From a virus, in the IMG/VR virus record IMGVR_UViG_3300046011_003736, positions 1 through 20,076 of that record: a stretch of DNA of 20,076 bases. The stretch is one strand, 5' to 3'. The position numbers and the translations under genes are program-made. Below the pieces are notes generated by a model. It had not been told where the DNA came from. It searched no databases and saw nothing but the letters and a program-made list of their open reading frames with translations. Below are positions 1 to 13,297 of the stretch, one piece after another. The first letter of the stretch is position 1, and each line of letters opens with the position of its first letter.

Positions 1-132
1 ATTCCTATTCCAATAGCTGATTTCATATTTCTTCAATTTCTTCGCTGCACGATATATTTCCCCGGCTTGGCTTCTGCTCATCTGGTACACCCCGGTACCA
101 TCGTTGATCATTCGTTTGGCCTGCTGGCTCAT
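1..132 (-). CDS. Small basic phage protein, partial (runs off left edge)
   Basis: Forty-four codons are visible from an ATG at 130-132 and the frame is still open at the edge of the window, so the C-terminus is missing. The start overlaps the stop of the RuvC-like gene in an ATGA arrangement, which supports the start choice and suggests translational coupling. The visible part begins MSQQAKRMINDGTG and contains a Lys/Arg-rich stretch (RAAKKLKKY) around residues 32-40. I do not recognise the family. The position at the end of a recombination operon and the positive charge would fit a small nucleic-acid-binding or regulatory protein, but that is inference only. Confidence 0.6.
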   Translation of the reverse strand, partial: MSQQAKRMINDGTGVYQMSRSQAGEIYRAAKKLKKYEISYWNRN

Positions 133-587
133 CGACCGCCTCCGGTTGCGTAGTGGAGAATCAATAAGGCATCGCAGTTCTTCAACGTCACATCGAGGTG
201 CGGGTACAGTTCCTGGGCTTTGGCCTTCAACTTGCGCTTCCATTCGGGTCCGGTGGCGCAGGAGCGTTTGCCACCGAGTCCAAGCGGATCCTGCCAGATT
301 TTGGGTTCCACGCGGTGGAGAGCGTAGCCAAGAGAGTAGGCCAGTCCTTGGATGATGCCGTAGTTCTCATGCAGGGTGGCGACACTGGATGATGGGGTCA
401 GCTTGCTCACGAACTTGGGAACCTTCTCGATCCAGAGGTGGGAGTTTGCTACCTTAAACCCGGAGAGGAGATAGTGCATGTCGGGTAACGACTCCGGCAT
501 TGGAAACAGGAGGATTCCATCTGGAGTTTTGATTGCGAACCCGCCGTTCACGCCTGGGTCACAGGCTACGATCGTTTTGTTTGTCAT
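129..587 (-). CDS. RuvC-like Holliday junction resolvase
   Basis: The 152-aa protein has the hallmarks of the RNase H-fold resolvases: an N-terminal beta-strand ending in the catalytic Asp (ACDPGVNGG, D10), a second acidic residue at the end of a hydrophobic strand (LWIEKVP, E54), and a C-terminal acidic motif in a helix (KNCDALLILHYA, D139). Length is close to the 150-190 aa usual for RuvC and phage resolvases. Its likely role is to nick four-way or branched junctions made during phage recombination and replication, before packaging. It is the sixth of the visible recombination genes; its start lies inside the upstream 44-aa membrane-protein gene (29-base overlap, different frame) and its TGA overlaps the next ATG. 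The leader is A/C-rich (CACAACAAACCA) with no Shine-Dalgarno sequence. A more general RNase H-like endonuclease is the main alternative. Confidence 0.82.
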   Translation of the reverse strand: MTNKTIVACDPGVNGGFAIKTPDGILLFPMPESLPDMHYLLSGFKVANSHLWIEKVPKFVSKLTPSSSVATLHENYGIIQGLAYSLGYALHRVEPKIWQDPLGLGGKRSCATGPEWKRKLKAKAQELYPHLDVTLKNCDALLILHYATGGGR

Positions 588-693
588 TGGTTTGTTGTGA
601 TTTGATGGTGAGAGAGTGGCCTACATAGATCCCGGCGATCACGCAGAGGGGCAGGAGGATGGCCATGGAAATGATTGTAAGAGCGGTGCTCAT
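559..693 (-). CDS. 44-aa single-span membrane protein
   Basis: A 44-aa reading frame starts at the ATG at 691-693, which overlaps the helicase stop as ATGA, and ends in a TGA at 559-561. Residues about 4-25 (ALTIISMAILLPLCVIAGIY) form one strongly hydrophobic segment, followed by a short polar tail rich in Gln, Asn, Lys and Asp. It therefore looks like a small inner-membrane protein with a single helix. It fills what would otherwise be a gap between helicase and resolvase, and its last 29 bases overlap the resolvase start in another frame. I do not recognise a family; a function in membrane attachment of replication, superinfection exclusion or lysis timing cannot be separated from sequence alone. 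The start overlap and the hydrophobic pattern are the evidence that it is real. Confidence 0.55.
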   Translation of the reverse strand: MSTALTIISMAILLPLCVIAGIYVGHSLTIKSQQTNDKQNDRSL

Positions 694-1802
694 AAGATGT
701 GGCACCCGAGTTCCTTGTAGCACTTGATACGCTTCTTCGAGTGCGCGATCGCCATGGGATGGAAGTTGTCCATGAAGTCGTAGATCATGGCGTGATACTT
801 TCCCGGAGCGATACGCAGCGCACGGCTGGCCCGCTGGATGGTCTTCTGGGCGCTCCGACCTCCTGACACCATGATCAGGTTCTCGACGTTCGGCAGATCC
901 AGCCCCTCGTCGGCCAGAGAGGTGGCGATCATCTTCGTGATTCTTCCAGCCCGAAAGTCATCCATGGCCTGCTTACGAAGCGACTTCTTCATCTTGGAAT
1001 GGACGAGCACGGACCCCTCTATCATGCGGGCGTACTCCTCGCCGAGCGTCACTCTGGGAACGAGCACCAGCGTAGGACCGTGTGAGCAGTTGGCGAACAT
1101 GATCGCCGAAGCGTTCCGAGCCATGTTCTCGCAGATGCCGATCTCGGTGATAGCTTCCCAAGCGCACATCGCACGGAGTTCCTCGTGGCGGATCCGCATG
1201 TACCGCTTGCGCTCGTTGAACAGCTTCTCGATGCGATCATTGATCCGATCCTCCAAGAATCGGTCAGAGGCACTGGACAGATGAACGGTCGCGTGGGCCA
1301 GAACTCCTTGGAGTTCCTCGCGCCTGATCTCGAACTGGGTGTCTCGGAACAGCTTTCGGAGTTCTTCGTTTCGCTCGCTGTCATCGGACCAAGGGGTTGC
1401 GTCGAATCCATATCGCAGTCCACGTGTAGATTCGATGATGCGCTTCCATGTGGTCGCAGGGGCGTGTTTGGCTTCATCAATGATGACCAAATGCTTTCCG
1501 CTAAAATCCACTGACTCGTGTGGGCATCTCACATCGACTCTGGAGTAATCGGCACCAACTGCCTTAAGAGAATCGATCGCTTGCTGACAGGTCTCGCGGG
1601 TCGGAGCGAGCCATCCGAAAGTCCACTCTGGTACTTGAGCAAAGTGCTTGATGATGGATGAGGCGATGACTGTCTTGCCGCATCCAGCAGGGGCGATGAT
1701 GAGTCCATCGCTACTCTTGGCCCACTCGACTGCTCGTTGTTGATAGGGACGAAGCAGAAACGCTTGCGTCGGAACGATTTCGGGATGATTCTTGGTCTGC
1801 AT
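690..1802 (-). CDS. SF2 DEAD/DEAH-type helicase
   Basis: This 370-aa protein contains the superfamily 2 helicase motifs in order: Q-motif-like region LRPYQQRAVEWA (17-28), Walker A APAGCGKT (37-44), motif Ia LAPTRE (65-70), Walker B DEAKH (109-113), motif III-like FDATP (133-137), motif V IATSLADEGLDLP (292-304) and motif VI QRASRALR (323-330) with the arginine finger. It should couple ATP hydrolysis to DNA (or branched DNA) remodelling, and phage proteins of this compact UvsW/RecG-like type often sit with RecT and resolvases. It is shorter than host RecG/RecQ and has no accessory domain. It starts 88 bases after the DUF669-like gene with a strong hairpin in between, and its TGA overlaps the start of the 44-aa membrane protein. 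The leader has AACAAAC but no Shine-Dalgarno sequence. Helicase identity is sure; exact substrate is not. Confidence 0.9.
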   Translation of the reverse strand: MQTKNHPEIVPTQAFLLRPYQQRAVEWAKSSDGLIIAPAGCGKTVIASSIIKHFAQVPEWTFGWLAPTRETCQQAIDSLKAVGADYSRVDVRCPHESVDFSGKHLVIIDEAKHAPATTWKRIIESTRGLRYGFDATPWSDDSERNEELRKLFRDTQFEIRREELQGVLAHATVHLSSASDRFLEDRINDRIEKLFNERKRYMRIRHEELRAMCAWEAITEIGICENMARNASAIMFANCSHGPTLVLVPRVTLGEEYARMIEGSVLVHSKMKKSLRKQAMDDFRAGRITKMIATSLADEGLDLPNVENLIMVSGGRSAQKTIQRASRALRIAPGKYHAMIYDFMDNFHPMAIAHSKKRIKCYKELGCHIL

Positions 1803-1847
1803 AGCGTGTCGTTGCGCTCTGTATTGTTTGTTACGGACTCGTTGTCA

Positions 1848-1875
1848 CCCCCCGGAGCTTGCACTCTCCGGGGGG
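1848..1875 (-). terminator. Strong GC hairpin, possible terminator or attenuator
   Basis: CCCCCCGGAG at 1848-1857 pairs perfectly with CTCCGGGGGG at 1866-1875 around an 8-base loop, giving a 10-bp GC-rich stem. It begins 15 bases past the stop of the DUF669-like gene and lies before the helicase gene, within an 88-base gap. On the minus strand no T-run follows the stem (TGACAACG follows), so a standard intrinsic terminator is not obvious; on the plus strand the stem is followed by CTTTCGTTTC, a weak T-rich tail. It could partly end transcription, protect the 3' end of the upstream message, or lower helicase expression. Confidence 0.45.
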
Positions 1876-1890
1876 CTTTCGTTTCAGGGT

Positions 1891-2310
1891 TTAGATGTCA
1901 TCGACATCCACCGGAACCTTCTTCATTCGTTTCACGCGGAGTGTAACCTGTTCGGCTCCGTTCTTGTCAGTGTACTTCTCCTCTTCGATGACGGCCACCA
2001 ACTGGAGTCCAACGAACCCCTGAAGGAATCGCAGGAACGCGCCACCGATGGAGAAGTCGTACTGGTCACCGTCATTGATGCTGGCCTCGGTGGCAGCGAT
2101 CAGGGCCTGAAGCCGCCACATCATGGTCTCCTTGAGAACGAAGCGGTCGCTGATGACCTCTCCGTTGCCGCCCTTGTAGCGCAGGGTGCAGACGGGGTTC
2201 CCGTTCTTGTCGAGGCCGTCATCCTTGCAGGAGTTGACGGTGACGATGTATTCGCCGGGGCTGGCGAACGGCTTAACTTCGGCTTGTGAACGATCGACTG
2301 TGAATTTCAT
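1891..2310 (-). CDS. DUF669-like phage recombination-associated protein
   Basis: A 139-aa protein, beginning MKFTVDRSQAEVKPFASPGE, with predicted beta-rich sequence and the pattern FASPGEYIVTVNSCKD near residues 15-30, followed by strands such as VCTLRYKGG, ISDRFVL and LQLVAVIEEEKY. This layout resembles the DUF669 family of phage proteins (about 140-190 aa) that are found beside RecT-like annealing proteins and exonucleases and are thought to bind or help load on single-stranded DNA. The neighbours here are exactly that set. It starts 18 bases after the exonuclease stop; the leader is A/C-rich (AACAAACAACACACAACACC) without a Shine-Dalgarno sequence. Family assignment rests on pattern memory and context, so a divergent single-strand-binding protein is a fair alternative. 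A strong hairpin follows the stop. Confidence 0.6.
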   Translation of the reverse strand: MKFTVDRSQAEVKPFASPGEYIVTVNSCKDDGLDKNGNPVCTLRYKGGNGEVISDRFVLKETMMWRLQALIAATEASINDGDQYDFSIGGAFLRFLQGFVGLQLVAVIEEEKYTDKNGAEQVTLRVKRMKKVPVDVDDI

Positions 2311-2328
2311 GGTGTTGTGTGTTGTTTG

Positions 2329-3105
2329 TTATTCGGACTGACGAGCCGCCCACGCGGGCAGCGAGAGTGTTTGAGTGGTTGAGGAGTAACAAGGCCAAGA
2401 GTTGAGTTCCTGGCATTCGATGAAGGTCTTGAGTTGTTCATCGATGATGGAGTTTCCAAGATCGATGGCCTGCTGATCAAGCTCGTAGCAAGCGACACCG
2501 AACGGTGCCTCCTTCTCGACGGCGATGAAGATGAAGCGGTTGATGCCGGTGATGCGTTGGTACCAAGCGGCTTGGACGTGGTAGCGGAACTGAGCGCAGG
2601 ACTTGGCGAACGCGCTTGGCGACGCATCCTGAGTGGTCTTGAGGTCGATGATGTAGTCCTTGCCGATGCCATCGATGCGGGCTTTGACCTCGATGCCGGA
2701 CCAATCGGTGAAGTAGGAGACCTCGGTCTTGATTCCATCCAGTAGGCCAGAAGCAGCAGGATGGGCATGAACCGCGGCGGCGACACCGGTGATGCTGTCC
2801 CACTGCTCTTGGGTGAGCGGGGTGAATCCGTTGTCGATGACGAGTTGGTAGTCCTCCTTACCCTGCTTGGTACGGCGATCGCCGGTGAACTGCTTGTAGG
2901 TGATGACGAACCGCTCCGGTTCCAGGACAGCGCAGTGAGCGGCGGAACCGAACTCCAACGCGGGGCTGGTTTCGTTCTTGGTCCTGCCATCCTGCCAAGC
3001 GCGGAAGTGAGCGGGGGACTTGCGGAACTGATCGAGGCCGGACTTGGAGAGAGCCTTTGCAGCGTGGTAATCCGCGGCGGGCATGTCGTGCATGATATCA
3101 ACCAT
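2329..3105 (-). CDS. PD-(D/E)XK exonuclease, RecE C-terminal/DUF3799-like
   Basis: The 258-aa protein carries the motifs of the RecE/YqaJ/PDDEXK_12 exonucleases: an N-terminal segment ending in FGSAAHCAVLEPE (52-64; H57), an acidic residue at E128, D145 in a strand (VKARIDGIG), the core D-x-K motif IIDLKTT (152-158; D154, K156) and the late helix YHVQAAWYQ (175-183). These enzymes digest one strand of double-stranded DNA ends and hand the remaining strand to a RecT partner, which is the immediately upstream gene. The ATG at 3103-3105 overlaps the RecT stop by 8 bases and is preceded by a perfect GGAGG with a 6-base spacer, so the start is well supported and coupled. A second long frame on the same strand (about 2307-3101) is Ser/Pro-rich low-complexity sequence and is not coding. 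Confidence 0.88.
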   Translation of the reverse strand: MVDIMHDMPAADYHAAKALSKSGLDQFRKSPAHFRAWQDGRTKNETSPALEFGSAAHCAVLEPERFVITYKQFTGDRRTKQGKEDYQLVIDNGFTPLTQEQWDSITGVAAAVHAHPAASGLLDGIKTEVSYFTDWSGIEVKARIDGIGKDYIIDLKTTQDASPSAFAKSCAQFRYHVQAAWYQRITGINRFIFIAVEKEAPFGVACYELDQQAIDLGNSIIDEQLKTFIECQELNSWPCYSSTTQTLSLPAWAARQSE

Positions 3106-3880
3106 TGGAAACCTCCGTCTCGATGACCTCGGGGCTGACGATGACCGGCAGCTTGGAGAGGATCAGGTCGGGCTTGGCGATGTACTTGGAAGCGTAAGCA
3201 TCGGAGAGATCGCGGAAGGTCTCACCATCCTGAATACGACCGACCTTGATGAGGAGGGCGTTGACATCTTCCTCGCGGGACTCGAACAGGGCTTCGAGCT
3301 TAGCGGTGATGTCGAAGCTCTTGGTGGGAGCGGCAGCAACCTCGGTGATAGCAGGCTGGAAGTCCTCGGTCTCCTCCGGGGTGTAGATGCCGGCCACAAC
3401 CTCAGGAGCGAGCATGCGAACCGCTTTGGATATGCACCGAGCGCGGAGCATGGCGGAAGGATCCTTGGCCCACCCGGAGCCCGCCTTGGCGGGGAGCAGG
3501 CCAGCGAGCTTGGCGTCCTCGGTGGTGAAGCTGATCTCGCAGGAGTTGCCGTCGTAGGTGAAGAGCGCGGTGGCGGCGCGGCTGTCAAACTGCTTCCAGA
3601 GAACCTTGCCACCACGGGCGCGGTATCCGGCGAGCATGGCATCGGAGCGCATGGAGAGAGAACCATTGATGATGTGGTACTCGCGCTTGAAGTCGAACGG
3701 TGTCTTCTTCTCGGCGGCGCACTGCCACGCGATGAGTTTACCCTGTTCGACCTTGGTGCATCCCAGCATTCCGCTGGCTGCGATCCACTCGCCCATCTTC
3801 TCGATGGCGGTGATGGGGTCCGAGATCTTATCGTACATCTCGGATGATGGCTGTTGCGTTGTCGTTGCGATTGCGTTCAT
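3098..3880 (-). CDS. recT: RecT-family single-strand annealing protein
   Basis: The 260-aa protein matches RecT in length and in the characteristic block WAKDPSAMLRARCISKAVR (137-155) followed by MLAPEVVAGIYTPEE (156-170), the conserved region in which Arg-rich helix and YTPEE/YtaEE appear in RecT homologues. An upstream segment (LSMRSDAMLAGYRARGG, 75-91) also fits. RecT proteins coat single strands and pair them with a complementary strand, giving RecA-independent recombination. It lies between a small helix-turn-helix gene (ATGA overlap at its start) and its exonuclease partner (8-base overlap at its stop), the standard RecE/RecT arrangement. The C-terminal third (FDITAKLEALFESREEDV) is acidic and probably a regulatory or partner-binding tail. 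The leader GGCAACAAAATCC has no Shine-Dalgarno sequence, so translation probably depends on coupling to the upstream frame. Confidence 0.88.
   Translation of the reverse strand: MNAIATTTQQPSSEMYDKISDPITAIEKMGEWIAASGMLGCTKVEQGKLIAWQCAAEKKTPFDFKREYHIINGSLSMRSDAMLAGYRARGGKVLWKQFDSRAATALFTYDGNSCEISFTTEDAKLAGLLPAKAGSGWAKDPSAMLRARCISKAVRMLAPEVVAGIYTPEETEDFQPAITEVAAAPTKSFDITAKLEALFESREEDVNALLIKVGRIQDGETFRDLSDAYASKYIAKPDLILSKLPVIVSPEVIETEVSNG
3112..3116 (-). promoter_or_regulatory. Shine-Dalgarno GGAGG for the exonuclease
   Basis: GGAGG with a 6-base spacer to the ATG at 3103-3105. It lies inside the last codons of recT and fixes the exonuclease start. It is one of few textbook ribosome-binding sites in the window, in contrast to the A/C-rich leaders of neighbouring genes. 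Confidence 0.75.
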
Positions 3881-4050
3881 GGATTTTGTTGCCGTAGCAT
3901 TTCTTCGATTACGTCGGAGCGGACACGGATCGTGCGCTTGGTGGCCTTCATGGCCGGTAGCTTACCTCCCCGGATCCAGCGACGAACGGTCTCGGGATGA
4001 GTCCCGAGAGCCGTTGCGATCTCTTTGATTGTCAGGAGTTTCACGCTCAC
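3877..4050 (-). CDS. Small helix-turn-helix protein (excisionase/MerR-like, HTH_17 type)
   Basis: A 57-aa frame opens at a GTG at 4048-4050 (or a second GTG at 4042-4044, giving 55 aa) and ends in a TGA overlapping the recT ATG as ATGA. The sequence LLTIKEIATALGTHPETVRRW (residues 5-25) is a classical helix-turn-helix, and the following IRGGKLPAMKATKRTIRV gives the wing of the excisionase/MerR-like HTH_17 family; the tail SDVIEEMLRQQ is also typical. It should bind DNA as a small regulator or directionality factor. As the first gene after the virion block and head of the recombination operon it may control that operon. A perfect 15-base palindrome lies immediately upstream, a likely target. 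Which GTG is used cannot be decided; no Shine-Dalgarno sequence is evident. Confidence 0.78.
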   Translation of the reverse strand: MSVKLLTIKEIATALGTHPETVRRWIRGGKLPAMKATKRTIRVRSDVIEEMLRQQNP

Positions 4051-4051
4051 G

Positions 4052-4066
4052 AGACGACTGTCGTCT
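4052..4066. promoter_or_regulatory. Palindromic candidate operator
   Basis: AGACGAC-T-GTCGTCT is a perfect 7+1+7 inverted repeat that ends 1 base before the GTG start of the helix-turn-helix gene. A further GTCGT half-site-like copy lies at 4070-4074. The position between virion and recombination modules, directly beside a gene for a DNA-binding protein, makes autoregulation plausible. No convincing -35/-10 pair is clear; TTGCAC at 4080-4085 (minus strand) is only a weak -35 candidate. Confidence 0.45.
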
Positions 4067-4088
4067 AAAGTCGTAAAACGTGCAAGAG

Positions 4089-4104
4089 AATTCTTGAAAG
4101 AATT
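4089..4104. repeat. AT-rich palindrome at the end of the giant virion gene
   Basis: AATTCTT-GA-AAGAATT is a perfect 7+2+7 inverted repeat. It overlaps the TAA stop of the 1712-aa gene (4103-4105) and lies in the 52-base spacer before the recombination module. It could be a second operator or, as RNA, a weak hairpin; the stem is too AT-rich and the loop too short to be a convincing terminator. Confidence 0.4.
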
Positions 4105-7100
4105 ATTCGGACGGCTGCTGGAAGCCCCGGCGAGCGGCGAGCGGAGTGAGTGTTTGGCCCGACTGGATCAGCTCCCGAACAAACTGCTTCTTGGCGATGA
4201 GTAGGCCATCGTCATAGGCGCGTTGGAGGAGCTTGAGCTTTCGCTCGTCACCGCCCTGCTGGAAACGGGGTTTCATAAACTCCTGTTCCGCCCGTAATCT
4301 GCGGTAATTTCCCACGAGTTGGGTGTATCGATCGTACTGCTCAGGCGACATCCGATCGTAGGTCTTCTGCTTCCAAGTCAGACTGGGGCTTGGTACCGAT
4401 GGGATCGCGCTGTTGTCAGCGGTCCTGCGCCAGATCGTGTAGATCGAGGTGTTGAGCGGATCGGCATCGATGTCACGCGCTTTCCAAGCGTTGAAGAACT
4501 GGTACACCCACGGATTGCTTCCCTTCGGGGTCTGTTCCACGGCTTCACCCCAGAGGTCACGGCGCACCGGCATGGCATTGGGATCCTTCGCACCAGGGAT
4601 GGCCAACCCAAGGGCGGCGTATCGCTGATTGAGTTCATCGACCGTATCCTTGATGAAGCTCTGGCCACCGATTGCAGGGAGCTTGTCTCGTTCAGCGCGG
4701 CGCACGGCACCGAGGATGGCTGGAGCCACAGGAGACGCCGCAGTGACCGCCATACTCTTGAGCCAGCGATCCATCGAGTTGGTGGATTCCTGCGACAGGA
4801 GCTTGATGAAATCGCTGGTTCCCTTGAGGAACTGCTGCTCCATCACGAAGTTAAGGCCAGAGGTTGGTACTGCCTTAAACAGCGAGGTTGCGATCTCTTC
4901 GTTGCTGCGGCCCCGCTCCAATTGGCGCAGAGAAGTGCCGGCCATGATCCCCAATGCGCCGGCAGTGCCGAGGGATGAGAGATCGACCACGGTATCTCCC
5001 CCTTGGAATTTCGGATCCTTGCCGTTTACCAGTCGAGTTAGAGCCGAAAGATTGATCGTACCCGGAGGCATGACACCACCAGCCTTGGCCAACTCACGAG
5101 CCTTGTTGGTCTCGCCAGCGGTATCAAGGTTTGGGGTGATGATTCCCTTGCTGTAGAGATAACCGAACGCCGTAGTGACCATCGCTCCTACCGCAATTCG
5201 AGAAGCAGCTATGTTGCGTTCACGAGCGGTCATCTTTCCCCAATCGTTTATCAGCGCACCAGCAGGCGTGAACTGAAGAGCTTCTGCGGCTACGTTGATC
5301 GGGGTTTTCTGGAACAGCGAGATCAGTCGGTACGGGACGTAAAAGGTAGACCCAAGTTCATTCTTTATGAACCGATTGATTCCGGCCACAGCCTTGGTGG
5401 CTTTGTTATCCTGCTGGAAGATGGCCTTCAGAGACTCGGTCTCGATCGTCGCAAGATCATCTTCGGTGAATCCGCGGCGACCACGTTGAGCCTCTGCATC
5501 GGTTACGAACGCGAGCTTGGGATCGCGCACGGCGATCTGAATCTGACCTTCTGAGAGTCCCTTCGCTCGACCGATTTCACTGATGATGCGAGCGCGTTCA
5601 GCCTGCCGGAATGGAATATCAGTGGCCTGAGTTAGGCGCAGCATGATGTCGGGCAGGATGCCTATGGTCGCCTCAGTTAGGTTCCGGGGAGACAACGCGG
5701 ATCCGATTCTACCAGCAGCCATGTCTTCGGCGATCCGCCGCCATGCTCGCTGAAAGTTGAGCGGATTACCGATGTCGGTTCCAGGTTCATACGGCATCGC
5801 ATTGGAACCCTTGAGGACAGTTTTCATCGCAACTGGCAGCGACTTGTAGATCGCATTGATCCGATCAATGGTTCGAGCGCGGATGTTGAACGAGTTGTTC
5901 TTGTCCTTTGAGAACGTCGCGTCGATGGCTGCGGCACCAACATCACCAAGTTCGCGCAGTGGGTAGTTAATCGCATTACCCACCACGTTGCGAATGATTG
6001 AGATCGGACCCATCACCGATCCTTGAACCATCGAGATAAACAGATCCGCGGCGTCGGCTGGATTGATCTTCGCAAGCTGCTCGTTGAGGATGGCATCGAC
6101 CTCGGATCGTTTTGCGTCGGCCAAGTCCAACTGCTTCAGGCTCTTGTTGATCGTATTGAGATCGTTGGAAGCGAACGCATCACGAGCAACACGACCTGCG
6201 GCGATGACTTCATCGTTGGCAAGTTTGAGCTTGCTGCCGGCGTCCAGAAGGATCTGGGACTGCTCGGCTGTCATCGGCTTACGTTTTCTGTTGGCCAACG
6301 AATTCTGAACCAGCAGGACCAATCCCTCCGGGGTAGAGGAGTTGAGGAGCTTGAACTGGTTGATGAGCTGACCCCAACTGGTTCCGCTTTTCGCAAGTGC
6401 CAGTGCGGTGCTGCTTGCGCCAGCCACATCTCCAGAACGGATCTGGCGTCCAAAGATCTCCATGCCAGAAACAACCCTGGTGTTGGATGAGGTATCAGCC
6501 AGATCAGCATTGAGCTGAGAGAGCGACATGGACGATGCGCGATCAACCACCTCGCCCATATTCTGCTGAGCGTACTGAGCTTCAGGAGACTGGCCTACCG
6601 TCTCGCGGACCTCGGTGGGAAGCTGTTCAGCGGCAGCAACGCGACCTGCAAAAGCTCGGGTCTTCTGTTCTTCAGGACGTTGGAAGCGGAAACTGGTTGG
6701 ATCTCCTGTTTGTGCGTTTTTGACGAAAACTGTATTTCCAATTTGAACAGCTTCATCACCCCCTACAACAGGAGTCACTCCATCGGCTCGATCATAAAAA
6801 TAAGAGTGCCTGTCAGGATTAAACCCAACTTGAGTCCAAGTGTTTATGTCGCTTGGAATTGTTTGCGATTCGTGCTTTGTCCCCTTTGCGACAATGGTCG
6901 GTGTCTTTGCGGCACCAGCTCCTATCTTAAGTGACTGAGTTTCCATTCCTTTTGTGGGAACCATTTTGATGTTCCTAACACGAATGAACGGCTCGTATGT
7001 GGTTTTGTCTCCGCTGGTTCCAGTTACAACACCAACACCAAAATCAGTCATAGCAGGAACGTCCTGCCTGAGTGTCATCTCAGATCCAGCGGGTATTTCA

Positions 7101-9241
7101 CTCAGCTTTCCAACATTAGCTTTCTTCCTTGGATCACTGAGCGAGTCTCGAATTGTCTGTAAGTTTGGAAGTGCTTGCGATGAAAACTCGGGAACTTCCC
7201 TGACCGGGATATCGCGGTTGATTGCAGCCTGCAACGCTTCCCTGTCGAGTGTTCCACCAGCTTGAAGAGCTTCAAGTTGCGCCCTGACATCTGGAGAAAA
7301 GATTCGCCCACTCTCCATCATCTCCGCCTGAGACCCTGGGACTGACTCCTTGAACCTTTCAAATGCAGCAGCTCTACGCTCTGAAATGGTTTGAGGTTCC
7401 TCACCCCTCTGTGTCCTCTGCTCCGTCGCCTTCGGTGCAGTCACTCCCTTCCAAGGAACAGACTCGGTGGTCGCGTAGTGCATCCACGCGATGGCATCCT
7501 CGGGCGACACTTTCCCAGTGAGCAACTGCTTGGTAGAAGCCTTGAAGGCGTAGAACCAAGACCGGATATCGCTGCGCTTGATGTTCGGAATCTGCTCGCC
7601 AAACGCCTGAATGAGACCTTCTTCGAGAGCAATCTCTTGGGCCTGCTTTGGGGTCAGTTTTCCTTGCTCAACCTCTGGAGCGCGGGCCAACAGCTCGCTC
7701 TTGTAAGCGGGGGTATCTTGAGCGGATTCTAACAGAGACTTCCGCATCGACGGGTTGGTCACACCGCGGAACACATCGTGACCGATTTCATGGATAGCCG
7801 TGTCCGCTGTAGCCATGAGCGGGTTGACGCGGACGATACGGTTGCCGGTCTTTGGATCGGGAATGTAAATCCCTCGAATCTCAGTAGATCCAGCAAACGG
7901 ACGATCCAGTTCGATGGTCAGACCTCGACGAGCAGCAATCTTTGCGGCTGCATCTACGTCGGCTTGGGTAATTTTTGCCGCTTCGCCTTGGCGTTGGAGA
8001 CGACTGTAGAGATTATCGTAGATTTCTTGGGCCGTTTTTACAGCGGATTTTTCAGTTCTAAACTGACTCTCAGTAATAGTTTGGACCTGTTTTTCTTGTG
8101 CTTTTCGTGACCGCTCTTCGGACATGATTGCGCGTTTAGCAGCTTGCTGCTGCTGAACTACTTGTTCGTATGAATCCTCAAGTCCTTCTTGATACTGCCT
8201 TGAGATAAACTCAGGAAGTGTGGTTGGGTCTTTGATGACGCGAACAACATCGGGATCGTTGGCCAACTGCTGTATCCGCTCCTTCGGAATACGAACCTTG
8301 ACGCTATTTGCAGCTTCCTTGATGAGCGTTTCAGTCGGCTCAGTCTGAGACTTCCACCAGTTCTCGTACTGCTTGGCAATTTTATCTGCGTTGATCGGAC
8401 GATTTTCTTCGACTACTCGTTCTGGAGCTGGAGGTTGCTCACTAAGAGCGCGAAACCTTTCAGCCTCGACATCCATCTCGGCGACAGTCTTTTCAACTTC
8501 AGCTTTTTCTCGTTCAGCGCGGACTCTAGCCTCTTCAAAATCCAGCTTTTGAACCGGACCTTCTTGCGGCCCCTCGGCCATACCGAGCTTACGTCCCAAT
8601 CGAGTGGGGCGATTGAAAAGCGTACCGAGCGCGATGTCTGCTGCGAGTTGGCCACCAGAGAACTCTCCGCCCTGCGTAACCTCAGCGATCTGCTGACCGG
8701 TGGATTGAGCGACGTTCGCCGCCACATTCATGGCAGGATCAATGAATGCAGGCTTGGTGATCGCTTCGCGGAGCGTGGTCTGCCGAACAAGTGGCCTACC
8801 AAGCTCGCTGAGGCCCTTGAGAGAAGGGCGAGCGGTCAGAGCGGTCGGAGCAAAGCCACCAATATACGAAGCGACAGGCTGCTCTTCCTGAGCCTGAGAC
8901 AGCTTCTGGAGCGTCTCAGGCGAGTATTTCTCAAGCAGTGCTTCCTGACCTTTGCTGGCAGCGTAAGCAGCCGCAGCACCGGCAGTTAACGCGCCTAGTC
9001 CACCACCTACAAGCATTCCAATAGGACCAAACGGTGCGCCAAGTAATGCTCCACCCTCGCTGCCAGCCATCGCGGCAGGTATTGCAGCCAGAGAGGGAAC
9101 TGCGCTGGCCGCGGCTGAGCGCAAACCAGCTTCAGTCTTACCCATAATTGGGTTCTCAAAGACATTCCCTTCCGCATCTACGTCATAGACCTCCGGATCG
9201 AGTTTGTTTTCGATCAACCAATCACGCTGGGTCTTTGTCAT
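4103..9241 (-). CDS. Giant ejection-type internal virion protein with HEIGH metallopeptidase motif (T7 gp16 position)
   Basis: The 1712-aa product is the largest in the window. A Gly/Ala-rich hydrophobic stretch covers about residues 42-97 (GGALLGAPFGPIGMLVGGG within it), followed by a charged helical region at about 233-280 (EEARVRAEREKAEVEK). IHEIGHDVF places a zinc-peptidase HExxH motif at 484-488, with candidate third ligand E540/E541 in IALEEGLIQAFGE. Around 710-850 lies a beta-rich segment with GFNPDRHSYFYDR, of a kind I have seen in phage large polyvalent proteins. The C-terminal 600 residues contain several hydrophobic stretches (for example ISMVQGSVMGPISIIRNVVG, about 1070-1090; AVGAMVTTAFGYLYSKG) and a helical tail. 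Length, hydrophobic segments and position after the gp15-like gene match T7 gp16, which forms the channel for DNA ejection; the lytic transglycosylase of gp16 is not seen. It is therefore probably packaged and ejected. Start ATG follows the upstream stop by 11 bases. Confidence 0.72.
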   Translation of the reverse strand: MTKTQRDWLIENKLDPEVYDVDAEGNVFENPIMGKTEAGLRSAAASAVPSLAAIPAAMAGSEGGALLGAPFGPIGMLVGGGLGALTAGAAAAYAASKGQEALLEKYSPETLQKLSQAQEEQPVASYIGGFAPTALTARPSLKGLSELGRPLVRQTTLREAITKPAFIDPAMNVAANVAQSTGQQIAEVTQGGEFSGGQLAADIALGTLFNRPTRLGRKLGMAEGPQEGPVQKLDFEEARVRAEREKAEVEKTVAEMDVEAERFRALSEQPPAPERVVEENRPINADKIAKQYENWWKSQTEPTETLIKEAANSVKVRIPKERIQQLANDPDVVRVIKDPTTLPEFISRQYQEGLEDSYEQVVQQQQAAKRAIMSEERSRKAQEKQVQTITESQFRTEKSAVKTAQEIYDNLYSRLQRQGEAAKITQADVDAAAKIAARRGLTIELDRPFAGSTEIRGIYIPDPKTGNRIVRVNPLMATADTAIHEIGHDVFRGVTNPSMRKSLLESAQDTPAYKSELLARAPEVEQGKLTPKQAQEIALEEGLIQAFGEQIPNIKRSDIRSWFYAFKASTKQLLTGKVSPEDAIAWMHYATTESVPWKGVTAPKATEQRTQRGEEPQTISERRAAAFERFKESVPGSQAEMMESGRIFSPDVRAQLEALQAGGTLDREALQAAINRDIPVREVPEFSSQALPNLQTIRDSLSDPRKKANVGKLSEIPAGSEMTLRQDVPAMTDFGVGVVTGTSGDKTTYEPFIRVRNIKMVPTKGMETQSLKIGAGAAKTPTIVAKGTKHESQTIPSDINTWTQVGFNPDRHSYFYDRADGVTPVVGGDEAVQIGNTVFVKNAQTGDPTSFRFQRPEEQKTRAFAGRVAAAEQLPTEVRETVGQSPEAQYAQQNMGEVVDRASSMSLSQLNADLADTSSNTRVVSGMEIFGRQIRSGDVAGASSTALALAKSGTSWGQLINQFKLLNSSTPEGLVLLVQNSLANRKRKPMTAEQSQILLDAGSKLKLANDEVIAAGRVARDAFASNDLNTINKSLKQLDLADAKRSEVDAILNEQLAKINPADAADLFISMVQGSVMGPISIIRNVVGNAINYPLRELGDVGAAAIDATFSKDKNNSFNIRARTIDRINAIYKSLPVAMKTVLKGSNAMPYEPGTDIGNPLNFQRAWRRIAEDMAAGRIGSALSPRNLTEATIGILPDIMLRLTQATDIPFRQAERARIISEIGRAKGLSEGQIQIAVRDPKLAFVTDAEAQRGRRGFTEDDLATIETESLKAIFQQDNKATKAVAGINRFIKNELGSTFYVPYRLISLFQKTPINVAAEALQFTPAGALINDWGKMTARERNIAASRIAVGAMVTTAFGYLYSKGIITPNLDTAGETNKARELAKAGGVMPPGTINLSALTRLVNGKDPKFQGGDTVVDLSSLGTAGALGIMAGTSLRQLERGRSNEEIATSLFKAVPTSGLNFVMEQQFLKGTSDFIKLLSQESTNSMDRWLKSMAVTAASPVAPAILGAVRRAERDKLPAIGGQSFIKDTVDELNQRYAALGLAIPGAKDPNAMPVRRDLWGEAVEQTPKGSNPWVYQFFNAWKARDIDADPLNTSIYTIWRRTADNSAIPSVPSPSLTWKQKTYDRMSPEQYDRYTQLVGNYRRLRAEQEFMKPRFQQGGDERKLKLLQRAYDDGLLIAKKQFVRELIQSGQTLTPLAARRGFQQPSE

Positions 9242-9252
9242 AGCCTTATAAG

Positions 9253-10647
9253 TTAATCTCTTTGATAAGATATATCAGAAAACGGCGATCTATTGTAACC
9301 TCTACTGGTTTGAGGTTTTGCCATTTCAGCGGCTGATTTATTTAACGCTTCAATATATATTCGATTCTTAACCTCTTGAGGAAGACTATTCCATTGTTCA
9401 GTTGGGAACTCGTTAGCAATAACAGATTTGGCACCTTTAACTAAAACGCTTTCTTGGCCGATACGTTGAGGCTTGGTTCCAAGTTCAGAAGCGACAGATT
9501 CATAAAATGGATCTGTTAGAGTTTGCGAGGCCCCATATGTATATGCTCCTCCTCGTCCCTCAAGGGCTTTTAATTGTCTTCCTGTTTTAGTAAATTGTTC
9601 GCTTGGGCTGAGTGGTCCGTACATATTGGCGACAGGAGTAGCGGCCATTTCAGATACAACAGCATCAGCGGCAGATCTTGGTTTTCCATCGCTCCTTCCA
9701 ACCATCGGTTCACCTTCTCCTCTTGGAGGTGCTTTCGGAAACGCTTTAGTACCTTCGCCACCAGCTCCGCTTAGGTCGTCTTTCAAAGAAGCCCCATACG
9801 CTTTCTTCATGTCTTCAAGTTGAGGAGCGATGGCTTTTATTTCGTCTGCTGTCATCTCACCAAAATCAACATTGAATGACCTTTGATCTTCGGTCTCTCG
9901 CATCGATACCTTGTATGGCGAATCCTTTTTCTTCTTAAAGAAGTCAGGGTTTAGAGACTGAAACTTTTGAACAAGATCAGAAGGCCCCTGAACACTGACA
10001 TCACCGGCAGCGTTTCGGCTGACGAACACCTTGCCTTCATCCAACTTGGCTCGACGAGCTTCTTCTTGCTTGCGAAGAGAAACATCTGAAACACCAGCCA
10101 TTCGACGAAGAGTGTTGATATCCAACTGCGAATAATCAGGCATTATTCCGGATTCAATTGCAGCCTTTTCAGTAGCTCCCATTTCTGCGCTAAGTCGGCC
10201 AACAAGCCCTGCTTTTTCAGCCGCTTCCTTTTCACCTGTTGAAAGGCGTTGAAGACGGGCAAGCTCTCGACCAAGTTGCTGCGCTGGCTCAATTGGTCCA
10301 ACAAACTCCTTGTCTTGACCACTGAGAACCTCGGCACCTCCCCTAGCTTCAAGAAGTCTTCTGCGCTGTTCTGCTTCAGTTCGTTGAGTCTCAAGCTCAA
10401 GCTGCCTTTTGAGCATCTCATCTTGCTGCGCCTTAAGCCGAGCCATCAACCGCTCCTCCTGCAACGCTGAAAGGTTTTCCTCCATCAACGCCCGCTTGGC
10501 CTGACGCTGCTGCCGGATCTGCTCATTGGTTCCGGTGAACTCGCCAGCGATTCCGCCGGTAAGCATGGACAATCCCTTGAGCAGCGGGTTGACACGTTGG
10601 CCAGCCTGCTTCTTGAGTTCTTCTCTAATTTCGTCTGGAGTAGCCAT
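9253..10647 (-). CDS. Coiled-coil internal virion protein (T7 gp15 position)
   Basis: The 464-aa product starts with a short helix and a Gly-rich hydrophobic patch (LLKGLSMLTGGIAGEFTG, about 22-39), then a long Gln/Arg/Glu-rich coiled coil from about residue 42 to 100 (EERLMARLKAQQDEMLKRQL). The rest is mixed and mostly helical with a low-complexity linker (GEGTKAFPKAPPRGEGEP) near the middle. I do not recognise a family by sequence. Position between the gp14-like block and the giant gp16-like gene suggests an internal core or ejection protein that oligomerises through the coiled coil. The last ~170 bases are far more AT-rich (32-35% GC at 9241-9360) than the 5' end (63% at 10501-10560), suggesting a different origin of the C-terminus. 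The gene is 3 bases from the upstream stop and 11 from the next start. Confidence 0.6.
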   Translation of the reverse strand: MATPDEIREELKKQAGQRVNPLLKGLSMLTGGIAGEFTGTNEQIRQQRQAKRALMEENLSALQEERLMARLKAQQDEMLKRQLELETQRTEAEQRRRLLEARGGAEVLSGQDKEFVGPIEPAQQLGRELARLQRLSTGEKEAAEKAGLVGRLSAEMGATEKAAIESGIMPDYSQLDINTLRRMAGVSDVSLRKQEEARRAKLDEGKVFVSRNAAGDVSVQGPSDLVQKFQSLNPDFFKKKKDSPYKVSMRETEDQRSFNVDFGEMTADEIKAIAPQLEDMKKAYGASLKDDLSGAGGEGTKAFPKAPPRGEGEPMVGRSDGKPRSAADAVVSEMAATPVANMYGPLSPSEQFTKTGRQLKALEGRGGAYTYGASQTLTDPFYESVASELGTKPQRIGQESVLVKGAKSVIANEFPTEQWNSLPQEVKNRIYIEALNKSAAEMAKPQTSRGYNRSPFSDISYQRD

Positions 10648-10650
10648 AAA

Positions 10651-11703
10651 TTATCGCATTTCGCTGAGGATTGACCGACGAGCCTGTCTTCCACCCATGC
10701 TCCGCATAGCCGCGGCGAGGATCTCCTCGGGGTCGTAGTTGATGTCCTTGAAGTAGCCGGGGGATATAGCCTCAATCATCCTGCGGGTCGCAACCGGAAT
10801 CGTGGTTGGTTCGATCAGAGGATTGGTAACCGGCTTCCCTTGGTAAGGTATAGCTTGAACTCTTGTAGGAGCAGTTTGAGTTACAGGAGTTGTTACAATC
10901 GGAAACGTGATCTGAGGCTTATCAAGCGGAACCAGACCCGGAGTGATGGGCTTATCCTCTATAGCAGGACCGGGTACACCAGTATCCTCTATGTAGTAGG
11001 GCTTCTCGTCTCCTTTGATAGGGGTCGTAACAACACCGCTAAAAATGTTGGTATCAACATCTTCGACCTTTGGGATGGAGGTTTCAGGGAGAGGGTTTAC
11101 AACAGTCGATACCGGAGGCTGTTGAAGGTCCATCGTGCCTTCCCTGATGTACCGATCCCTGTTCTCGGGACTAATCAGGCTGATTCCGGAGTCCTCCCCT
11201 TCGCTACTGTAGGTGGCTTCTTGGGGAGCAGGAGTAGGAGTCGGGGTTGGCTGAGGGGCAGGCGTTGAAACCGGAGTGGGAGCCGGCGTGAACGTCTGGA
11301 TGTTGCTCAGGTCTACAGGAGGACGATAAACCTCGGTCCATCGAGTTGGCCCACCAGTGTACGGGGTCGGTTCAGGGGTCGGCTCTGGCGTCGAGTAGTA
11401 GCTCAGCGGATCGACAGGAGGCTGAGCGTATCCGGATGCGGTTACTGGACCGAACTTGGGGGCTGGAGGTGTTGAGAGATCGACTGCTGGCCTATTGTAT
11501 TCCCAGTCATCGATCTGCCAGTCCCAGCGATTCCCAGCGTCATCGACATATTCATCTCCAACTCGGAGTCCGCCAGTGCCAGGAATGATTGCTCCCCACG
11601 GAAGATATTGGTCGCCGGCAAGATATAGCCTCTCAGACGCCTGATTCGGACTTGATGAATCCGTTCCAGACCCTGACGTATCTGTGCTGGTATCTTTTGC
11701 CAT
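10651..11703 (-). CDS. Pro/Thr-rich virion accessory protein
   Basis: The 350-aa product has an N-terminal Ser/Thr/Asp-rich leader, an aromatic segment (YLPWGAII, NRWDWQIDDWEYNRP, about 33-72), then a Pro/Thr-rich low-complexity linker from about 104 to 160 with repeated PTPEPTP and PTPTPTPAP units, and a C-terminal helical basic region (AAAMRSMGGRQARRSILSEM). This looks like an extended, disordered connector with small folded ends. I recognise no family. It lies in the internal virion protein block (3 bases from each neighbour), between the gp14-like and gp15-like genes, where T7 has no gene. A structural or decoration role is inferred from location only. The start is the ATG 3 bases past the upstream TGA; no strong Shine-Dalgarno sequence. 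Confidence 0.55.
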   Translation of the reverse strand: MAKDTSTDTSGSGTDSSSPNQASERLYLAGDQYLPWGAIIPGTGGLRVGDEYVDDAGNRWDWQIDDWEYNRPAVDLSTPPAPKFGPVTASGYAQPPVDPLSYYSTPEPTPEPTPYTGGPTRWTEVYRPPVDLSNIQTFTPAPTPVSTPAPQPTPTPTPAPQEATYSSEGEDSGISLISPENRDRYIREGTMDLQQPPVSTVVNPLPETSIPKVEDVDTNIFSGVVTTPIKGDEKPYYIEDTGVPGPAIEDKPITPGLVPLDKPQITFPIVTTPVTQTAPTRVQAIPYQGKPVTNPLIEPTTIPVATRRMIEAISPGYFKDINYDPEEILAAAMRSMGGRQARRSILSEMR

Positions 11704-11706
11704 AGA

Positions 11707-12885
11707 TCAAGGTCCAACAAAACCGCGGAATCCAGTTCCAAGCTGACCGATTCCACCGGCAAGACCACCGATGCCTTGCATGATGGCCAGCGGAGAACCG
11801 GCCTGCGAGGCTTGGAAAGCGTTCTGGGCGTTGGTGAGAGCGAAATTGCTGCCAGTCTGCATGAGCTGACTCGGACTGGCCTGCTGCATTCCTTGGAACA
11901 ACTGAGGAGTGGCGAACGGCGAAGCACCCTGCTGGAGACCGCCAAGCTGAGCGGCCTGTGAGACGATAGGCTGGAGACCCAGAGCGGACTGGATGTTCGC
12001 AATGTTCTGCTGCTGACCACTCTGACGCTGTTGCTGCGAAGCCATCTGGCCTGCGAAGCTCTGCTGCATCGCGGTGTTCCGCTGACCGGTGGCTGCGAGG
12101 ATGTTCTGGAAGGCTTCCTGCGCCTGTCGATTGGCGACATCGCTGGTGGTCTGACCGCTCTGGAGTAGGCCAAGAGCCTGCTGACGGCGTTGGACATCGG
12201 CGTTTCCGATCGCTTCGCTGACAGCGCGGGCTTCGCGGAATGCGGAGAGATTACCGAGGACGTTACCGGAAGCGGTACCGCGGGCGCGAACAGCTTGCTC
12301 AGCGGCCCGAATCAAACTGGGATCGAGCGTACCGGCCTGAGCGAGGCCGGCACCGATCTGGCGTTCGAGATCGCTCCGGATCCTCGCGGCCTCACCGGTA
12401 TCCTGGGGGCCAGTAGGCATACCCACACGCTCGTAGGAAGGCGCGGCGATGGTTTCCTCAGCGATGGGGCGACTGCCGATGTCCTTGAGGAACTGGGCGT
12501 AGAGGCCGGGTTCTCCAGGTTTTCCATCAACACTAGGAGTACCGTAACGCTCAGGATCGAGGGCTTGAAGCTCGGCTCGACGCTGCTCAGCGAACTTGGT
12601 GCCGTAAAGTTTTTGCGCCTCAAGCTGTTGTCTGGCCTGCTCAGGGGCCAACGCGGCAAGAGCCTTTCCAATGGCTTCTGTCTGAGCGATGTCGGATACA
12701 GGTCCAAAATCAACCTCTCTAAACTGACCGGTCTCCTTGCCGTCTTTGTAGATAGGAACCCGAACCTTGGCACCTATACGCGATGCCGCCTCGATCTCAC
12801 GCTGGAGCGGGAAAGTCTCGATGGAGGCCATGACGGCCTCGCGGTTCGCCGCCGCTATATCTGGTGCTTTATAGGTGCCGCCCAT
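11707..12885 (-). CDS. Gln/Ala-rich internal virion protein (T7 gp14 position)
   Basis: The 392-aa product is helical and rich in Ala, Gln and Gly. Residues about 225-330 are especially Gln-rich (MASQQQRQSGQQQNIANIQS), and the C-terminus is a Gly-rich hydrophobic segment (LAIMQGIGGLAGGIGQLGTG). A Gln-rich helical body with a hydrophobic end is what T7 gp14 and similar core proteins look like, though it is about twice the length of gp14 (196 aa). In T7, gp14 forms an outer-membrane pore at ejection. Order also fits, as the gene follows the small gp13-like protein, with which it overlaps by 17 bases. Start ATG at 12883-12885 has AAGGA at 12892-12896 with a 6-base spacer. Assignment is by composition and order, not by residues. 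Confidence 0.6.
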   Translation of the reverse strand: MGGTYKAPDIAAANREAVMASIETFPLQREIEAASRIGAKVRVPIYKDGKETGQFREVDFGPVSDIAQTEAIGKALAALAPEQARQQLEAQKLYGTKFAEQRRAELQALDPERYGTPSVDGKPGEPGLYAQFLKDIGSRPIAEETIAAPSYERVGMPTGPQDTGEAARIRSDLERQIGAGLAQAGTLDPSLIRAAEQAVRARGTASGNVLGNLSAFREARAVSEAIGNADVQRRQQALGLLQSGQTTSDVANRQAQEAFQNILAATGQRNTAMQQSFAGQMASQQQRQSGQQQNIANIQSALGLQPIVSQAAQLGGLQQGASPFATPQLFQGMQQASPSQLMQTGSNFALTNAQNAFQASQAGSPLAIMQGIGGLAGGIGQLGTGFRGFVGP

Positions 12886-13297
12886 AGGAAATCCTTCGGT
12901 TCATCAGTAGTTTGGAGTACCTGTCAAAATCGTACAAACGGGAAATGCCTTTGCGGAACCCACCCAGCTTGGTGACGTTCTTAGAGCATAGCCCCATCAT
13001 GGCCACCCAGAGTGTCTGAACCGCATGAGGCTCAGTACCAATCGCTATCTCGATCCAAGCGATGTGACCATCTGGGAAGTTGTTGTTCAGATCCTCGGAT
13101 TCCTCGATCGAGTTGAGGAATCGCACAGCCCCTACACCAACACACTTCCCCTCATCGTTCTTCACAATCCCGATCAGCTTCTTGGCATTGAAGATTCCGA
13201 TCCAGTTGAGGAGCTGATCATTGTTCCATGTGGAACAAGTAGGCCAATGCTGTCGCAGCAGTTGGGCCGCTTCGATGATGGTGGGATGTGCGGTCAT
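12869..13297 (-). CDS. GNAT-fold-like small virion protein (T7 gp13/DUF2833 position)
   Basis: The 142-aa product begins MTAHPTIIEAAQLLRQHWPT, then shows an alternating strand/helix pattern: LIGIVKNDEGKCVGVGAVRF (about 41-60) as paired strands, HIAWIEIAIGTE as a central strand, VQTLWVAMMGLCSKN as the following helix and FRKGISRLYDFDRYSKLLM near the end. This resembles N-acetyltransferase folds, but the acetyl-CoA loop (Q/RxxGxG/A) after the central strand is not evident, so catalysis is doubtful. T7 gp13 is 138 aa and, as I recall, its family is grouped with acetyltransferase-like folds; here too the gene directly follows the gp12-like gene. The ATG overlaps the upstream stop as ATGA, so I reject a longer frame reaching 13837, whose N-terminal part is Arg/His-rich shadow sequence. 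Confidence 0.6.
   Translation of the reverse strand: MTAHPTIIEAAQLLRQHWPTCSTWNNDQLLNWIGIFNAKKLIGIVKNDEGKCVGVGAVRFLNSIEESEDLNNNFPDGHIAWIEIAIGTEPHAVQTLWVAMMGLCSKNVTKLGGFRKGISRLYDFDRYSKLLMNRRISYGRHL
12892..12896 (-). promoter_or_regulatory. Shine-Dalgarno AAGGA for the gp14-like gene
   Basis: AAGGA with a 6-base spacer to the ATG at 12883-12885, inside the 3' end of the GNAT-like gene. It decides the start of the Gln-rich internal protein. Confidence 0.6.

Follow-up and report, generated by a model that had tools for sequence, protein, structure and literature searches.

A predicted zincin-like peptidase, RxQR boundary motifs and an exchangeable cassette slot in a giant, probably ejected phage protein

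Giant phage proteins with zincin-like domains

The polyvalent proteins that Iyer et al. described (2017; PMC5512222), among them P1 DdrB and the virion RNA polymerase (vRNAP) of phage N4, are giant proteins in which a zincin-like metallopeptidase (MPTase) is combined with exchangeable effectors such as ART-PolyVal. In the parts of that paper available to us, the core of these peptidases runs in the order helix, three strands, HExxH helix and a helix bearing a glutamate. Self-processing of polyvalent proteins by the MPTase has been proposed since that work, and in the same parts the proposal names no cleavage site and has few examples behind it; the N4 vRNAP, although it has an HExxH domain, is cited there as being packaged without processing, which counts against self-cutting. 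Zincin-bearing polyvalent proteins are already a known kind, and the peptidase motif of the giant protein analysed here, P0001, belongs there.

The reading that suits P0001 best is a polyvalent protein of this kind, in a position like that of an ejection protein. Its family combines unrelated domains, a zincin with exchangeable cargo and, in relatives, ART-PolyVal, and such a combination is what marks a polyvalent protein. Unlike the proteins of Iyer et al., P0001 has no match of any confidence to the Pfam and PHROG models tested and no polymerase, and ParB-like cargo occurs in zincin-less relatives only. The RxQR boundary motif and the cassette slot of the P0001 family are not reported in the available parts of PMC5512222, and a literature search for DIRYQR-type boundary motifs found nothing relevant; the motif-bounded cassette architecture appears to be undescribed in the sources searched.

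Other giant or zincin-bearing proteins share part of this picture. The gp74 of Tenacibaculum phage Gundel_1 (2482 aa, annotated as a structural protein) resembles P0001 in carrying HExGH and EE..Q.IGE within a giant protein, but it has no RxQR motif and its remainder was not detected as related to P0001. The crAss-like “RNAP associated protein fused to zincin protease” is also giant, possesses zincin and ADP-ribosyltransferase domains and gives a fold match to P0001, whereas its architecture is RNAP-associated and no RxQR is present in ctcc615 or cr85_1. The microtubule-associated zinc carboxypeptidase MATCAP (7z5g, 7z6s) provides the top PDB fold matches to the P0001 zincin, but it is a eukaryotic enzyme, the TM-scores are low, and no direct sequence relation to P0001 was found. 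With T7 gp16 and P22 gp16, P0001 shares its large size, its hydrophobic stretches and a place that closes the virion block, behind what are in its case three putative ejection proteins; unlike T7 gp16, P0001 has no transglycosylase and no sequence match to it.

The phage and its ejection block

The window is the whole 20,076-nucleotide stretch that was analysed (IMG/VR record IMGVR_UViG_3300046011_003736), and its features are collected in Table 1. A sequence-only reading had proposed a 1712-aa open reading frame at 4103-9241, which is real and starts from an ATG; its strand, unstated in that reading, is the minus strand. The minus-strand order is tail-fibre proteins, stabilisation protein, the 392-, 350- and 464-aa proteins, the giant protein and a recombination block, the last of these (window 129-3880) encoding a RecT-like annealing protein, exonuclease VIII, a helicase and a Holliday-junction resolvase. 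The giant gene stands at the end of the virion block, a position that fits an ejection protein, after three mid-sized proteins that gave no match when compared with PHROG and Pfam.

Table 1. Features of the window (residue numbers refer to P0001 unless otherwise indicated)
Feature	Window position	Strand	Basis
Giant multidomain protein P0001, 1712 aa	4103..9241	-	ORF from ATG; related proteins in IMG/VR contigs
C-terminal region, residues 856-1712	4106..6676	-	Common to zincin-less relatives; unrelated in more distant clade; breakpoints
Boundary motif 3, RFQR, residues 852-855, after cargo	6677..6688	-	From codons 853-857 the DNA is again similar to cargo-less alleles
Cargo slot, residues 613-851, module GFNPDRHSYFYDR...GNTVFVKN	6689..7405	-	Module also in other phage proteins; replaced or absent in relatives
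Boundary motif 2, RTQR, residues 609-612, after peptidase	7406..7417	-	Same place in 55/55 relatives
Zincin-like metallopeptidase domain (predicted), residues 418-600	7442..7990	-	Alignments, models, fold searches, profile comparison
E540/E541, candidate third zinc ligand, downstream helix	7619..7624	-	Both invariant; aligned with LEEALAQAIGE of Gundel_1 structural protein
HEIGH, residues 484-488, two predicted zinc ligands and general base	7778..7792	-	Alignment, composition
Boundary motif 1, RLQR, residues 414-417, before peptidase	7991..8002	-	Same place in 50/55 relatives
N-terminal region, residues 1-230, conserved; Gly/Ala-rich hydrophobic stretch 74-92	8552..9241	-	Conservation, hydropathy
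464-aa protein, putative ejection protein; one RLQR at its residues 131-134	9253..10647	-	Position only
350-aa protein, putative ejection protein	10651..11703	-	Position only
392-aa protein, putative ejection protein	11707..12885	-	Position only
P22-type stabilisation/head-closure-like protein, 655 aa	13294..15261	-	tblastn to “phage stabilization protein”; PHROG head closure Hc2 1.2e-10

We place the phage among P22-like podoviruses because the protein at 13294-15261 is a P22-type stabilisation/head-closure-like protein. A related contig encodes a major head protein and an SU10-type portal, and a terminase is found in several contigs; these sequence comparisons liken the phage to P22/SU10-type podoviruses, not to T7. 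The likeness to T7 gp16 suggested by the sequence-only reading fits the position of the gene but does not hold as homology, which we rejected: there was no sequence or profile match to any PDB protein, T7 gp16 included, and the portal is of the SU10 type and the head-closure protein of the P22 type. The hydrophobic stretches to which that reading pointed are present but modest, with only residues 74-92 and 1065-1083 reaching a Kyte-Doolittle value of 1.4 (window of 19 residues). Its failure to see a transglycosylase was borne out, as no Pfam SLT match exceeded the cut-off in 12 related contigs and one match fell below the threshold. The idea that a peptidase stands there instead of a transglycosylase falls away, however, since P22-type gp16 is without a transglycosylase anyway (PMC8954989); because the phage is P22/SU10-like, the missing domain is expected and calls for no replacement.

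In MW202722, a separately sequenced podovirus, a giant protein with HExxH and an ADP-ribosyltransferase signature occupies an analogous place, directly following a 730-aa “lysozyme” protein. PHROG weakly matches the part of a distant relative (L101) that corresponds to residues 1-230 of P0001 with an internal virion protein and with a tail-associated lysin. Judged from gene position only, the giant protein is probably a virion component that leaves the particle together with the DNA.

One contig of the family, IMGVR_UViG_3300046007_005839 (L116-L118; 58,610 bases), holds two copies of the ejection block with the giant gene, at 1-9317 and at about 49,280-58,600, whose DNA is 81% identical over 9.4 kb. 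In this double block the assembly has probably put together two strains of related phages; the alternative is a true duplication.

In scans of IMG/VR, relatives of the whole protein were encoded by 49 contigs and relatives of the peptidase domain by 64, the two sets overlapping largely. Further viral scans returned essentially the same contigs again, and the family therefore seems exhausted for these search patterns. A scan of genome contigs for the zincin gave 31 pattern matches with no relatives among them, and a search of INPHARED with most of the C-terminal region of the giant protein gave no match. The distant clade shares only residues 1-615 with P0001, while zincin-less relatives share it only from about residue 854 onward. 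Among the latter, L034-L046 have the same C-terminal region and, where complete, a different N-terminal half that starts MPIY[EK]VTQ, and they contain neither HExxH nor a boundary motif; L046 carries a ParB-like domain.

The zincin-like peptidase domain

From sequence comparison and structural models, residues 418-600 very probably adopt a zincin-like fold. The giant protein has only 5 histidines, 2 of them in HEIGH, and because of this just 0.001 HExxH motifs are expected from its composition. Among relatives that have this N-terminal region, all with sufficient coverage carry HEIGH, and H484, E485, G487, H488, D489, E540, E541, Q545 and E549 are invariant in 40/40 sampled domains, at identities down to 49%. 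The HEIGH at residues 484-488 and the possible third ligand at E540/E541 that the sequence-only reading had picked out are both present, although residue 484 lies 28% along the protein and not, as stated there, in its middle. Either E540 or E541 is the candidate third zinc ligand.

Structure prediction of this region, which had been proposed as a check for a metallopeptidase fold, returned the zincin order, with a mean pLDDT of 58.8 and 70.4 only for the two AlphaFold models and low global TM-scores. Both models contain a helix, three strands, the HEIGH helix and a later helix with two glutamates (EE), an order that is the same as the core order of polyvalent-protein peptidases given in the available parts of Iyer et al. 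The glutamates E540/E541 are found on helix 117-136 of the second model, which is of middling quality (mean pLDDT 70.4).

In a first Foldseek run against the PDB, the five best matches were all to the MATCAP metallopeptidase (7z5g, 7z6s), with a best E of 5e-4; with the second model MATCAP again filled the top five places, not significantly, and no PDB match lay below E 0.03. Against the viral models of BFVD, matches were to polyvalent proteins, lethal factor, several IrrE proteins, the Gundel_1 structural protein and the crAss zincin fusion. In a profile comparison by hhalign, the domain aligned at 93.7% probability and E 1.9e-7 with the zincin of the Gundel_1 structural protein family, in a register that sets HEIGH on HEFGH and ALEEGLIQAFGE on LEEALAQAIGE, while the HExxH domain of the N4 virion RNA polymerase reached a probability of only 5%, with the motif nonetheless aligned. 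No Pfam peptidase family scored above its cut-off in the giant protein or its relatives (best Reprolysin_3, 19.6 bits against 22.4, in relative L080), and a PDB profile search with the zincin alignment gave chance matches only (a mariner transposase and a designed protein). Pfam matches of the giant protein to 14-3-3 (0.016) and Inhibitor_I9 (0.36) were rejected as being at chance level. The zinc-peptidase domain of the sequence-only reading is thus upheld by sequence, profile and fold evidence, namely the invariance of HEIGH and EE, the E value of 1.9e-7 and the matches to MATCAP, IrrE and lethal factor; from sequences and models, we infer that the domain would bind zinc and act catalytically.

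Boundary motifs and the cassette slot

The boundary motif, defined by the pattern R-[F/Y/T/M/L/I/V/H]-[Q/S]-R, also stands behind each cargo in the relatives. Zincin proteins contain 2.85 copies each compared to 0.30 in shuffled sequences. Across 28 dereplicated proteins the mean is 3.04, compared to 0.21 for the reversed pattern and 0.30 in zincin-less relatives, which may all stem from one N-terminal replacement, so that the link between zincin and motif should not be read as many independent events. Within these 28 proteins, 83/85 copies are located at peptidase or cargo boundaries and none in the last 793 or so residues, while zincin-less relatives have 0 motifs at boundaries.

At the three positions the motif is encoded by 19, 26 and 20 distinct 12-base words, and the copies flanking the cargo of P0001 use differing codons (AGGACACAGAGG versus CGCTTCCAACGT). 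Because dozens of words and differing codons encode the same residues, the constraint on the motif acts at the protein level; a simple DNA repeat was rejected, as the codons differ. ADP-ribosyltransferase domains outside the giant-protein family are also followed by DIR[FY]S-type tails, in one case in an HExxH-less protein of a Dolichospermum phage, and for this reason the cargo or general polyvalent linkers may account for part of the motif signal.

Computation shows that the stretch between the second and third RxQR motifs is a cassette slot, the occupant of which is exchanged between near-identical phages. Protein similarity to relatives stops at residue 615 and restarts at about 850, and DNA similarity to the cargo-less alleles L019/L020 stops at codon 609 and restarts at codons 853-857. 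These breaks in homology coincide with boundary motifs, of which cargo-less alleles have one between the peptidase and the C-terminal region and cargo-bearing alleles two. Relatives with closely similar flanks carry differing content after the peptidase: the slot contains an ADP-ribosyltransferase in L025, L030 and L033, a module without assigned family in L032, and no cargo in L019-L024, L026-L028 and L067. In L080 and L101 of the distant clade, the peptidase is followed by a second HELGH zincin and an ADP-ribosyltransferase. ART-PolyVal occurs in 9/22 relatives of the giant protein, and the cargo module of P0001 itself is also found inside proteins of MW202701 and Roseobacter phage CRP-9.

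A 1875-aa relative (L100:2842-8466) has extra boundary motifs after its ADP-ribosyltransferase, including RGEEDATRKFAERVIAPKAREERMQRGE, which resembles the linkers of the other clade. By its sequence, this protein is a mosaic formed at linkers.

Self-processing and its alternatives

To the reading in which P0001 is a polyvalent virion protein with an exchangeable cassette slot, and its zincin-like peptidase cuts its own chain at the RxQR motifs, we give slightly better than an even chance. H484 and H488 would hold zinc together with E540 or E541, and E485 would serve as the general base. The sites at which the peptidase would cleave the chain that contains it are the R-[L/F/M/T/Y]-[Q/S]-R motifs on either side of it and behind the cargo, which in P0001 are R414-R417, R609-R612 and R852-R855. 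The expected products would be an N-terminal membrane-active piece of ~417 aa, the peptidase of ~195 aa, a free cargo of ~243 aa and a C-terminal piece of ~857 aa, so that cutting would free the cargo and perhaps the zincin too. That the RxQR motifs are the processing sites of the zincin is something we infer. Of the peptidase roles proposed in the sequence-only reading, processing of phage proteins fits best, specifically of the protein's own chain, while peptidoglycan finds no support as a substrate.

A broader formulation is held more tentatively, at somewhat less than an even chance: P0001 may be a polyprotein with its own processing code, R-x-Q-R, which the embedded zincin reads so that plugged-in payloads are released automatically. 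New payloads gained by recombination would then be freed without further change because every payload is bounded by the code. If this is true, the R-x-Q-R motif would predict domain boundaries and cleavage in other polyvalent proteins. The family offers candidate cleavage sites, zincin-plus and zincin-minus relatives and cargo-plus and cargo-minus alleles, which make the self-processing idea directly testable; that idea, if right, would explain how phages can exchange injected effectors so freely.

An alternative that we think unlikely, though it carries real weight, accepts the zincin and has it act on host proteins after ejection as a payload enzyme, with RxQR marking the flexible inter-domain linkers of polyvalent proteins. 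An effector role is allowed by Iyer et al. (PMC5512222), who in the available parts cite N4 vRNAP as uncut, and the second HELGH zincin in the slot region of some relatives indicates that zincins can serve as cargo; moreover, polyvalent proteins outside the giant-protein family have DIR[FY]S tails, once without HExxH. Against this, no member of the clade of P0001 has lost the first zincin along with the motifs that flank it, while the cargo swaps or goes, linkers need not keep an arginine at both ends under synonymous drift, and the boundaries of zincin-less relatives lack the motif. The one DIRFSR-bearing protein without HExxH is also a point in favour of cutting at RxQR by another protease, from the phage prohead or the host, with a separate or non-catalytic role for the zincin. 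Many proteases would be suited by such dibasic-like motifs, and the 464-aa upstream protein contains an RLQR site. We nevertheless consider this quite improbable, as the motif tracks the presence of the zincin within the giant-protein family and directly adjoins it on both sides, and as the window proteins scanned, several of them without family assignment, yielded no other peptidase.

That homology breaks exactly at RxQR motifs, that the L100 mosaic contains linker pieces of the other clade and that near-identical phages differ in cargo only would all suit motifs that are recombination seams for cassette exchange and have no proteolytic meaning. We regard such seams as very improbable: copies in one gene have the same protein sequence and different DNA, the dozens of 12-base words imply poor homology at the DNA level, and seams would require no RxQR before the peptidase. 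Slighter still is the likelihood that HEIGH arose by chance or has degenerated and that the protein is a helical ejection protein with no zinc site. Models of middling confidence, low TM-scores and the lack of a Pfam peptidase match would agree with a degenerate motif, but these are set against an expectation of 0.001 motifs, the full conservation of HEIGH and the downstream EE, the strand-strand-strand-helix order, the profile match at E 1.9e-7 and fold matches that are mostly to zincins and polyvalent proteins.

Similar proteins in other phages

Pseudomonas phages F116 and USP_18 (L254:4441-9390 and L255:1-9537) each encode a giant protein in which an ADP-ribosyltransferase signature comes after two HExxH sites. 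In USP_18 the ADP-ribosyltransferase is followed by DIRFSR, which may be the boundary motif occurring more widely. Dolichospermum phage Dfl-JY45 (L257:6918-14081) encodes a 2388-aa protein that is without HExxH and has four WF..S.VV......VVYHGT ADP-ribosyltransferase-like signatures and a DIRFSR tail.
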